A stretch of DNA of 64,000 nucleotides from positions 540,659-604,658 of the forward strand of contig NZ_JAENIM010000039.1 in assembly GCF_016595495.1 (NCBI RefSeq). Direction: 5' to 3'. The first letter of the stretch is position 1, and each line of letters starts with the position of its first letter. A program made the translations under genes and the position numbers. The notes beneath the pieces were generated by a model. That model worked only from the letters and a program-made list of their open reading frames with translations, searched no databases and was not told the DNA's origin. Positions 36,122-38,723 of this stretch are shown one piece after another. This DNA comes from Persicirhabdus sediminis. Its GTDB lineage: Bacteria > Verrucomicrobiota > Verrucomicrobiia > Verrucomicrobiales > Akkermansiaceae.

Positions 36122-36162
36122 GAGGCGAAGTTGGGCATGAGCGGGGAGCTGAAACCACAATT

Positions 36163-36262
36163 TCGACTTCCTGCGACGGCATGATCCGCATCAGGTTCTA
36201 AGGGTTACGTCTCCGCGGAAAACGCTCTCAGCACGGCGATCGCCGCACACCCCTGTCGATTG
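36163..36262 (-). promoter_or_regulatory. TPP riboswitch (THI element)
   Basis: Minus-strand leader RNA with the hallmark aptamer segments in order: GACAGGGGTG, CTGAGA, ACCCTTAGAACCTGAT and GGATCATGCC, closed by a P1 stem of TCGAC with GTCGA. A GC-rich variable P3 arm (GCGGCGATCGCCG-like) sits between the first two segments. It lies upstream of thiC, which is the expected target. Confidence 0.96.
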
Positions 36263-36342
36263 ATGAAGCAGAGAATCATACAGCCAGCTAGGAATGTCAA
36301 GTGACCAGTAGCCCACATCTTTGTCAGCCAGAAAACCGCGAC

Positions 36343-36378
36343 GGCTAGAAAACCAAATGGTGATTTGGGCTGGGTTCG
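36343..36378 (+). repeat. Left copy of a 36-bp direct repeat flanking the REP/transposase locus
   Basis: GGCTAGAAAACCAAATGGTG at 36343 begins a 36-bp stretch that recurs at 38688-38723 with two differences. This copy lies in gene-free DNA. The right copy covers the 3' end, including the stop codon, of the zinc-ribbon gene. The two enclose 2.3 kb of tandem repeats and a transposase. The left copy may be a remnant of that gene's end. Confidence 0.8.
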
Positions 36379-36473
36379 TGGAACGCAGGGCGGGTTGAAA
36401 GCAGCTAGAAATTTGCCAGCTGCGAAAGCGCTTTGGTTACTCACTTTGCTGACTGCGCGCATCGCGCAAGCTT

Positions 36474-37228
36474 AGCCACGGAGTGGCGGTCGATCGAAGC
36501 CCAGGGCAACGCCCTGGGGTTGGCATGTGCTAGAATAGGCTAGCCCCGTAGGGGCGACCATTTAGCCGATGACTGCTGGCGCCAGATGTCCATGTTTATA
36601 GGGTTCGTCACGGGTGGCACTTGGTTATAAAGCTCATTAGCCTGAGAAGATTCACTAACTTGAGAAGACTCATTGGTCGGAGGTTTCATCAGTTCTAGCC
36701 ACGGAGTGGCGGTCGATCGAAGCCTAGGGCAACGCCCTGGGGTTTGACATTCGCTAGAGTAGGAGAGCCCCGTAAGGGCGACCATTTAGCCAATGGCTGC
36801 TGGCGCCAGATGTCTTGTTTATAGGGCCGTCGCAGGTGGTACCTGGTTATAAGGCTCATTAGTCTGAGAAGATTCACTAACTTGAGAAGACTCATTGGTC
36901 GGAGGTTTCATCAGTTCTAGCCACGGAGTGGCGGTCATTCGAAGCCCAGGGCAACGCCCTGGGGTTTGTCATTCGCTAGAGTAGGAGAGCCCCGTAGGGG
37001 CGACCATTTAGCCAATGGCTGCTGGCGCCAGATGTCCATGTTTATAGGGTTCGTCACAGGTGGTACTTGGTTATAAAGCTCATTAGCCTGAGAAGATTCA
37101 CTAACTTGAGACGACTCATTGGTCGGAGGTTTCATCAGTTCTAGCCACGGAGTGGCGGTCGATCGAAGCCTAGGGCAACGCCCTGGGGGGGCATGTGCTA
37201 GACTAGGAGAGCCCCGTAGGGGCGACCA
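36474..37228 (+). repeat. Left tandem array of ~223-bp units with REP-like hairpins
   Basis: Units begin AGCCACGGAGTGGC at 36474, 36697, 36919 and 37143 (spacing 223, 222 and 224); the last is partial. Each unit has a hairpin module of about 85 bases with three small palindromes, GCCACGGAGTGGC, CCAGGGCAACGCCCTGG and GCCCCGTAGGGGC, ending GGGGCGACCA, and then a spacer of about 135 bases. The array ends where the transposase gene stops. Small open frames here are artefacts of the repeats. Confidence 0.88.
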
Positions 37229-37681
37229 TCATTCCCAAAGATAGCGATTATCGTATTCGATCTTGTTTTTCTTCAGGAAACTAACGAATTCCTGTTTGAA
37301 GCTTAACTTCTGATGATGCTCTTCTTGTCGAGCAATGTAGTCTTTCACGCACTTTACATTCGACTCACTAACTGAGAAGGCTGCGTAACCTGCCTGCCAT
37401 TGGAAATTGGCTAGACTAGTTAGCTGAGTTTTCAGCCACTTTGAGGAAGATTTTTTCACCTCCTCGGCGACACTAGCTGGGGAACTAGTACGCGCCAGCT
37501 TTAATAAAATATGAACGTGATCTTCTACTGAGTTGATAGCACATACCGAATTAGATGCGTTAGTTAGCACCTTTGCCATATATTGATGCATGGCTGGCCG
37601 TATAGATTTAACTAGCCACGGGTGACGGTTTTTGGTGCTGAAAATCAGGTGGATATAGATATTCGAATACGAATGAGCCAT
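37229..37681 (-). CDS. Y1 (IS200-like, REP-associated) transposase
   Basis: Single-strand DNA transposase of the HUH superfamily. The HUH pair is His-Val-His at residues 55-57 (DHVHILLKL) and the catalytic Tyr is probably Tyr115 in VKDYIARQEEHH. The compact 150-residue size fits IS200-type and RAYT enzymes. The ATG at 37681 is preferred over the longer frame, whose first 30 residues are repeat-derived (MPPRHEPRRGDHQ). It is bounded exactly by GGGGCGACCA on the left and TGGTCGCCCC on the right, in inverted orientation. Relatives of RAYT proteins mobilise the hairpins (REPs) that flank them. Confidence 0.85.
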   Translation of the reverse strand: MAHSYSNIYIHLIFSTKNRHPWLVKSIRPAMHQYMAKVLTNASNSVCAINSVEDHVHILLKLARTSSPASVAEEVKKSSSKWLKTQLTSLANFQWQAGYAAFSVSESNVKCVKDYIARQEEHHQKLSFKQEFVSFLKKNKIEYDNRYLWE

Positions 37682-37736
37682 TTTTGAAACTAACCGATAT
37701 GGGCGCCTGTTGCAAGTAGTTGGGGTTTCTGGCTGG

Positions 37737-38640
37737 TGGTCGCCCCTGCGGGGCTCATGTCGTGGAGGCACCTAACCCCAAGGCGTTGCCTTGGGCTTCG
37801 AATGGTCGCCACTCCGTGGCTAGCGATGACATCAGCCTTGGCTGGGTTAGTAGTTTTATTCCGTGGCTGAATTTATGATTTTTGCCCGCGATTGTGTTTC
37901 TCCGTGTGGTTGATCGTTAGTTGCCGGCTAGAGTCGATGGTGTTAGTTCTCATCTGCGAGTGGTCGCCCTACGGGGCTCATGGTCGTGGGGGCGTCTAAA
38001 CCCAAGGCGTTGCCTTGGGCTTCGAATGGTCGCCACTCCGTGGCTAGCGATGACATCAGCCTCGGCTGGCTTTGTAGTTTATTCCGTGGCTGAATTTATG
38101 ATTTTTGCCCGCGATTGTGTTTCTCCGTGTGGTTGATCGTTAGTTGCCGGCTAGAGTCGATGGTGTTAGTTCTCATCTGCGAGTGGTCGCCCTACGGGGC
38201 TCATGGTCGTGGGGGCGTCTAACCCCAAGGCGTTGCCTTGGGCTTCGAATGAGCGCCACTCCGTGGCTAATAATGACCTCTGCATCGGCTGGCTTTGTGG
38301 TTTATTCCGTGGCTGAATTTATGATTTTTGCCGCGATTGTGTTTCTCCGTGCGGTTGATCGTTAGTTGCCGGCTGGAGTCGATGATGTTAGTTCTCATTG
38401 GCGGGTGGTCGCCCCTACGGGGCTCATGTCATGGGGCACCTAAACCCAAGGCGTTGCCTTGGGCTTCGAATGGTCGCCACTCCGTGGCTAACGATGACAT
38501 CAGCCTTGGCTGGGTTTGTGGTTTTATTCCGTGGCTAACAATGACCTCTGCCTTGGCTGGCTTTGTGGTTTATTCCGTGGCTAGCAAGAAGAGTCCCATC
38601 TCGGCTAGGTTTGTGGTTTTGCTTCGTGGCTAAATTATGA
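37737..38640 (-). repeat. Right tandem array of ~223-bp units, inverted relative to the left array
   Basis: Units begin TGGTCGCCC at 37737, 37961, 38184 and 38406 (spacing 224, 223, 222) and carry the same three palindromes as the left array in reverse complement, including CCAAGGCGTTGCCTTGG and GCCACTCCGTGGC. The spacer between modules is unrelated to that in the left array. The last unit decays into partial TTTATTCCGTGGCTA repeats. Confidence 0.85.
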
Positions 38641-38687: not shown

Positions 38688-38723
38688 GGCTAGAAAACCA
38701 AATGGTGATTTGGACTCGGTTCG
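38688..38723 (+). repeat. Right copy of the 36-bp direct repeat
   Basis: 34 of 36 positions match the copy at 36343-36378, same orientation. It overlaps the stop codon and last codons of the gene on the minus strand that starts at 39232. Confidence 0.8.

Follow-up and report, generated by a model that had tools for sequence, protein, structure and literature searches.

A probable REPtron-like locus of Y1 transposase subclass 1.2 with inverted three-hairpin repeats in Persicirhabdus sediminis

What accounts for a small Y1 transposase gene lying between two tandem arrays that have almost the same period, carry the same three-hairpin module in inverted orientation, and are filled with unrelated spacer DNA? 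A sequence-only reading had described this arrangement in a 64,000-nt stretch of the Persicirhabdus sediminis genome (the whole stretch analyzed, hereafter the window), and the description held when we measured it. Tandem Repeats Finder placed the two strongest tandem arrays of the 64-kb window on either side of the gene, tnpA (37229..37681, minus strand). The left array (36473..37229, minus strand) has a period of 222 bp and 3.4 copies and the right array (37736..38536, plus strand) a period of 223 bp and 3.6 copies, in agreement with the claimed unit of about 223 bp. Each side carries four modules of 88–92 nt, each with three hairpins (hp1, hp2, and hp3), and three full spacers, to which the right array adds part of a fourth. 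Distances from one module start to the next are 222, 222, and 224 bp on the left and 224, 223, and 222 bp on the right. Modules on both sides point away from tnpA, with all three hairpins inverted between the sides, as had been claimed. Read outward from the gene, a typical unit consists of TGGTC, hp1 (GCCCC-TAC-GGGGC), about 22 nt, hp2, about 12 nt, hp3 (GCCAC-TCC-GTGGC), and the spacer. The second hairpin is CCCAGGGC-GTT-GCCCTGGG in the left array and CCCAAGGC-GTT-GCCTTGGG in the right array.

A covariance model of the module (R1, described below) detected all eight window modules at full length with scores of about 50–62 bits. On the minus strand these are left module 1 (37140..37229, 50.5 bits, model positions 1–91 of 91), which starts on the last base of the tnpA stop codon, left module 2 (36916..37007, 56.4 bits, positions 1–91), left module 3 (36694..36785, 49.8 bits, positions 1–91), and the outermost left module 4 (36471..36561, 62.2 bits). 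On the plus strand, right module 1 lies upstream of tnpA and points away from it (37736..37824, 55.2 bits), followed by right module 2 (37960..38048, 50.4 bits), right module 3 (38183..38271, 50.0 bits), and right module 4 (38405..38492, 57.0 bits). The left array has a module at both termini. The right array extends about 44 nt into its own spacer, and this stretch is itself repeated, forming a short tandem repeat of about 47 bp (38481..38587, plus strand, 2.3 copies) in which the end of the module is joined to the beginning of the spacer, on the array’s outer edge. The extent first given for the feature, 36474–38640, has a right end that runs past the last full module and through diverged copies of this ~47-bp repeat of the right-spacer start. 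Folding of single window modules was modestly better than that of shuffled sequences (z from −0.6 to −2.9), and the minimum-energy fold of left module 3 does not give three hairpins.

A relation between the two spacer types (for example, 36562..36693, one of three copies of the left type, and 37825..37959, one of three full copies of the right type) was rejected in either orientation, as the sequence-only reading had held. The best same-strand local alignment scored 14, which 380 of 500 shuffles reached, and the best reverse-complement alignment scored 12, which 475 of 500 reached. Neither type occurs outside its own array in the 4.17-Mb genome. Structured spacers were rejected as well, with folding no better than that of shuffles (z = +1.4 and +0.5). 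Two other features adjoin the locus. A TPP riboswitch (RF00059, 73.6 bits, 36151–36264, minus strand) upstream of thiC lies beside its left end, and a 36-bp direct repeat containing the small palindrome CCAAAT-GGTG-ATTTGG is found just outside both arrays (36343–36378 and 38688–38723, copies 2345 bp apart). A search of the window and the fetched loci gave no third copy of this repeat. It could indicate a former outer limit of the entire locus.

The tnpA product is a 150-aa Y1 transposase (Pfam PF01797, E = 2.6e-24) with the motifs DHVH, WQ, and YIARQEEHH, the signature of subclass 1.2. The three subclass motifs (DH[IV]H, WQ, Y---Q--HH) are all found in 60 of 64 related proteins. We built a profile from 28 relatives, and it matched the solved Y1 transposases 2xm3 (1.4e-17), from ISDra2, and 2a6m (1.1e-14), labelled ISHp608 transposase; by sequence profile the protein is predicted to have the HUH/Y1 fold. 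PF01797 matched the genome 25 times: six matches are short genes like that of the window, and most of the remaining 19 lie in frames of about 400 aa. The six short copies are diverged, being 36–43% identical to the window’s. Several of the longer matches lie at the very start of contigs (G000: C34:226, C45:226, C41:200, and others), as expected of repeated elements that break an assembly.

In the parts of Quentin et al. 2018 (PMC6006769) available to us, TnpA_Y1 subclass 1.2 is defined by DH[VI]H, WQ, and Y---Q--HH, a median length of 148 aa, and few copies per genome with low identity between them. Judged by its motifs, length, and few diverged copies, the window’s TnpA would belong to this subclass. 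Those parts describe the subclass as being without REP and generally without typical terminal secondary structures, whereas here a three-hairpin module flanks the gene. They also draw it mostly from Cyanobacteria and Bacteroidetes, while the window’s relatives come, by record titles, mainly from Verrucomicrobia, Planctomycetes, and their neighbors.

We built R1 from 18 modules of 13 loci, all from other species (19 training candidates were listed, and one from L091 was dropped). The sequence-only reading had proposed looking for the module elsewhere in the genome, and it does recur away from the locus, singly or in arrays. R1, scored on 150 of 1041 candidates, gave at least 115 matches at E ≤ 0.001, so modules far outnumber the six short tnpA copies. 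In nearly all of the dispersed copies examined, hp1 and hp3 are 66–67 nt apart. The training modules had been picked for perfect stems, and therefore the 100% pairing in their alignment (A1) holds by construction. A second alignment (A2) combined the eight window modules with 11 dispersed copies picked by hand; two of these are without hp1, and in two others hp3 is cut. The base pairs of the module covary: among own-genome copies, 27 cells were changed on both sides of a pair, compared with 10.4 ± 2.1 in shuffles, and the stem variants of hp2 (CCCAGGGC, CCCAAGGC, CCTTGGGC, CCCTAGGC, and CCCTGGGC) nearly always have matching partners. The number of changed pairs was less telling (5 vs. 3.7, equalled by 61 of 500 shuffles). 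The foot before hp1 is mostly GGTC, GGCC, or GATC (17, 8, and 7 of 92 modules), and hp3 in the window’s module family is often preceded by GGTC or GACC. With such feet, the two outer hairpins could act as a left and a right end.

The module also accompanies related genes. We collected 64 loci of relatives, of which 58 had both flanks readable (the incomplete L097, L098, and L099 were left out; the frames of L066, L086, and L115 contain a stop, and their matched span was taken unchanged). In 53 of these 58, R1 detected a module no more than 200 nt from tnpA on one side or both, and in 35 it did so on both; of those 35, 27 had modules that were inverted and pointed away from the gene; no module was found near tnpA in the other five loci. 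Among the 47 loci outside the training set, the corresponding counts were 42, 24, and 16. Background more than 1.5 kb away amounted to 14 matches in 131,012 nt, or 0.021 per 200 nt. A strict, sequence-blind scan for three hairpins with perfect stems was positive in 39 of 124 flanks of such genes, compared with none of 620 shuffles and 1 of 243 distant flanks; in the opposite orientation it was positive in 13 of 124 flanks. It missed 32 of 59 loci because it demanded perfect stems.

Within the window’s genome, four of the six short tnpA genes have inverted R1 matches on both sides, one has only a distant match, and one has none, and all six show inverted matches between their upstream and downstream flanks. 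Our first inverted-repeat test used mismatched locus pairs as a control and put 25 of 58 loci above the control’s 99th percentile. Since modules are homologous between loci, that control was inflated and the test uninformative; direct matches were present too in 27 of 58 loci. Adjacent modules in the relatives’ loci often alternate in strand, with 46 −+ neighbors (median gap 26.5 nt), 57 +− neighbors (median 71 nt), and 22 on the same strand. These alternating neighbors resemble REPIN doublets, whereas each window array keeps a single orientation.

Gene and module also go together across genomes. Over 58 genomes (the window’s and those of relatives), the transposase was present in 38 and the module in 39: both in 35, the transposase only in 3, the module only in 4, and neither in 16 (Fisher p = 4e-8). 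Put differently, 35 of the 38 genomes with the transposase had the module, as did 4 of the 20 without it. The association held in the 44 genomes of at least 3 Mb with the window’s own excluded (Fisher p = 2e-6). Modules flanking one gene have a mean identity of 0.746 (n = 35), compared with 0.634 between different loci, and module identity tracks protein identity over 55 loci (Spearman 0.49, with none of 2000 permutations as high). R1 found modules in 15 of 17 picked genomes, many of them metagenome bins and two of them sources of training modules, with titles that include Planctomycetota, Acidobacteriaceae, Lentisphaerae, Chloroflexi, Armatimonadetes, and Bacteroidetes; two Bacteroidetes genomes among the 17 gave no R1 module. 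In 20 Bacteroidota loci, all with Y---Q--HH, R1 matched at E ≤ 0.001 in 12 and not in the other 8. Related enzymes in several bacterial phyla are accompanied by the same module.

We consider it probable that the locus is REPtron-like and belongs to TnpA_Y1 subclass 1.2, that is, a tnpA gene with inverted cognate repeats whose module is dispersed genome-wide. The rival that survives best is ordinary satellite-like expansion by slippage or unequal exchange, with no part for the transposase. This genome does contain many kinds of tandem repeat, and recombination between modules alone can yield arrays bounded by modules. Other tandem arrays near module loci (L046:8865–9179, L054:11534–11964, and L051:5254–11086) repeat every 7 bp, every 16 bp, or at a variety of longer periods, and by eye they are unrelated in sequence to the module. 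However, arrays of period 60 or more cover 11% of the 500 bp adjoining such genes and only 0–3% beyond 1.5 kb, and the module both co-occurs and co-diverges with the enzyme. Overall we think this rival unlikely, although it may apply where only array expansion, and not the module, is concerned. Of 36 array edges, 19 lay no more than 10 nt from the edge of a module; random placement would give 3.5, and no simulation among 20,000 exceeded 13. This count may have been raised by conserved modules giving the repeat finder anchor points. Arrays of such size and symmetry around the gene had been called unusual. Among 52 loci, an array within 300 bp of the gene is no rarity, with 13 instances, but arrays on both sides are rare, with 3. 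The other loci with arrays on both sides have periods of 77/77 and 66/66, which are not independent support for matched lengths, since strong same-orientation matches across the gene indicate that the same unit is probably on both sides.

A second rival takes the locus for an IS200-type insertion sequence, in which tnpA and its flanking modules move together and the modules are the ends. The Y---Q motif is like that of subclass 1.1, and modules lie at a median of 11 nt from the stop codon and 18.5 nt from the start codon, as terminal sequences would. IS200-type ends carry hairpins of one orientation, whereas the modules here are inverted. Further, the genome’s six short copies are diverged and not near-identical, its modules greatly outnumber them, flanking DNA at the locus is conserved in three species pairs, and we saw no mobility of the whole unit. 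In those pairs the DNA around tnpA is conserved while module number differs (15 in L078 vs. 5 in L080, 3 in L062 vs. 6 in L063, and 6 in L071 vs. 4 in L072, whose contig is short downstream), as would be expected if the gene stays in place while modules move or recombine. An insertion sequence is therefore improbable in our view.

The third rival came from Rfam, where Acido-Lenti-1 (RF01687) is catalogued as an sRNA. It aligns to hp2 and hp3, the 3′ half of the module. In the window it matches three modules of the left array at 34.1, 29.1, and 29.1 bits, all under the cut-off of 37; the best of these covers hp2 and hp3 of left module 4 (36474–36518). Above the cut-off, there were 16 matches in 20 relatives’ loci and 26 in seven other stretches of the window’s genome, and by eye 15 of the 16 and all 26 lie inside module matches, so that 41 of the 42 gathering matches compared coincide with the module. 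RF01687 matched 34 of the 38 genomes that have the transposase and 4 of the 20 that do not. Among 148 Bacteroidota genomes the link to the transposase was weaker (19 of 70 vs. 10 of 78, p = 0.023; above the cut-off, 11 vs. 3, p = 0.014). Tandem Acido-Lenti-1 matches 68–70 bp apart occur in G057:C38 and G050:C59, which suggests arrays that repeat hp2–hp3 alone. The portions of Weinberg et al. 2010 (PMC2864571) available to us tabulate Acido-Lenti-1 as a probable RNA of Acidobacteria and Lentisphaerae, and those of a 2026 paper (PMC13298647) suggest gene regulation from it; neither set of portions ties it to a transposase.

If the modules acted as RNA, Acido-Lenti-1 would be a real small RNA or a transcript-end structure that regulates or terminates tnpA and its neighbors. 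In keeping with this, the first module begins at the stop codon, and paired bases covary as they do in RNA. Covariation cannot separate DNA hairpins from RNA hairpins, however, and tandem and inverted arrays on both strands and both sides of the gene, in tens of copies per genome, have the look of a repeat family rather than an RNA gene. We regard an RNA role as improbable too.

The last proposal was a constraint on unit length itself, imposed by replication, transposition, or nucleoid packing. It drew on the agreement within 1–2 bp of two arrays with unrelated spacers, and it is very improbable because periods in the module family vary widely and the constant part is the module itself, with its fixed hp1-to-hp3 spacing. 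Widely differing periods had been named beforehand as the finding that would refute such a constraint, and a check of other copies for a 135-base spacer had been suggested. Elsewhere in the window’s genome, inter-module periods include 101, 127, 148, 149, 161, 249, 276, 281, 321, 393, and 431–435 bp, and beside related transposases in other genomes they are 66–488 bp. In the hand-compiled list of own-genome periods, 4 of 210 pairs agree within 1 bp, so a single matching pair, though uncommon, is nothing remarkable and needs no mechanism; the equal periods of the two window arrays are probably a coincidence. An array of period 222 also occurs in another species (L104). Two module arrays stand out elsewhere in the genome. 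Nine same-orientation modules with a period of 101 bp, and hence spacers of only about 11 nt, occupy L056:14366–15296 (G000:C47, ~192.4–193.3 kb), where no short tnpA is directly adjacent. On the window’s own contig, 3.7 kb past the right end of the window, alternating inverted modules of the same family have periods of 435 and 321 bp (L045:8116–9573).

Returning to the REPtron-like reading, we think it probable, from sequence comparison, that this is a REP/RAYT-like system of subclass 1.2 in which a stationary single-strand transposase would act on dispersed modules. TnpA would bind the module hairpins where DNA is single-stranded, such as at replication forks, and would cut and rejoin at or near module ends, perhaps with a role for the GGTC-like foot before the hairpins. 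Such cutting and rejoining may spread modules while the gene stays in place. The available portions of PMC6006769 offer a precedent in IS608, where a guide at the foot of the hairpins that the enzyme binds determines its cutting sites. Where two modules come to lie in the same orientation, strand exchange, by TnpA or by homologous recombination, could duplicate a module together with the intervening DNA. Repeated module–spacer–module arrays would result, with a period that is an accident of the initial distance.

A link to REP/RAYT had been raised in the sequence-only reading, and it was right in kind: the system would work in the REP/RAYT manner, yet it falls outside the RAYT class as published. 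As in REPtrons (class 2, TnpA_REP), the Y1 gene is present in few copies and has on its two sides, in inverted orientation, a palindromic repeat that is dispersed in the genome and may also form inverted doublets and clusters. However, the protein has YIARQEEHH and no Y---NP, the feet lack GT[AG]G, and the unit has three hairpins in 88–92 nt rather than one hairpin of 20–40 nt. TIRtrons, as the available portions of Di Nocera et al. 2013 (PMC3733652) describe them, also have a tyrosine transposase gene (TIRYT) between long inverted repeats, some of which form families with dimers and clusters. They differ in protein class, being mostly of subclass 2.1 with a C-terminal HTH domain and GGGGWSAS in the repeats (PMC3733652, PMC6006769, in the portions available). 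IS200/IS605 elements (subclass 1.1) share the predicted fold family and Y---Q, whereas here the copies are single and diverged, the flanks are inverted and composite, and HH is added to the Y motif.

A broader reading is more doubtful, and we hold it tentatively. An unrecognized REP-type system of subclass 1.2 may extend across Verrucomicrobia, Planctomycetes, Bacteroidota, Acidobacteria, and others. Its substrate would be a fixed three-hairpin single-strand module, with same-oriented outer hairpins acting as IS200-like left and right ends around a central hairpin, and Acido-Lenti-1 would be the right half of that module, a DNA element instead of an RNA gene. If so, genome annotators may be misled by the Rfam entry, which presents Acido-Lenti-1 as a gene for a non-coding RNA. 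The arrays bounded by module ends are natural material for studying repeat expansion. Our results suggest that an enzyme class thought to be without a DNA partner has one, and that the orphan family Acido-Lenti-1, which thereby gains a testable identity, may belong to it. They offer a candidate DNA partner, obtainable as synthetic oligonucleotides, for an enzyme subclass that was described without one.
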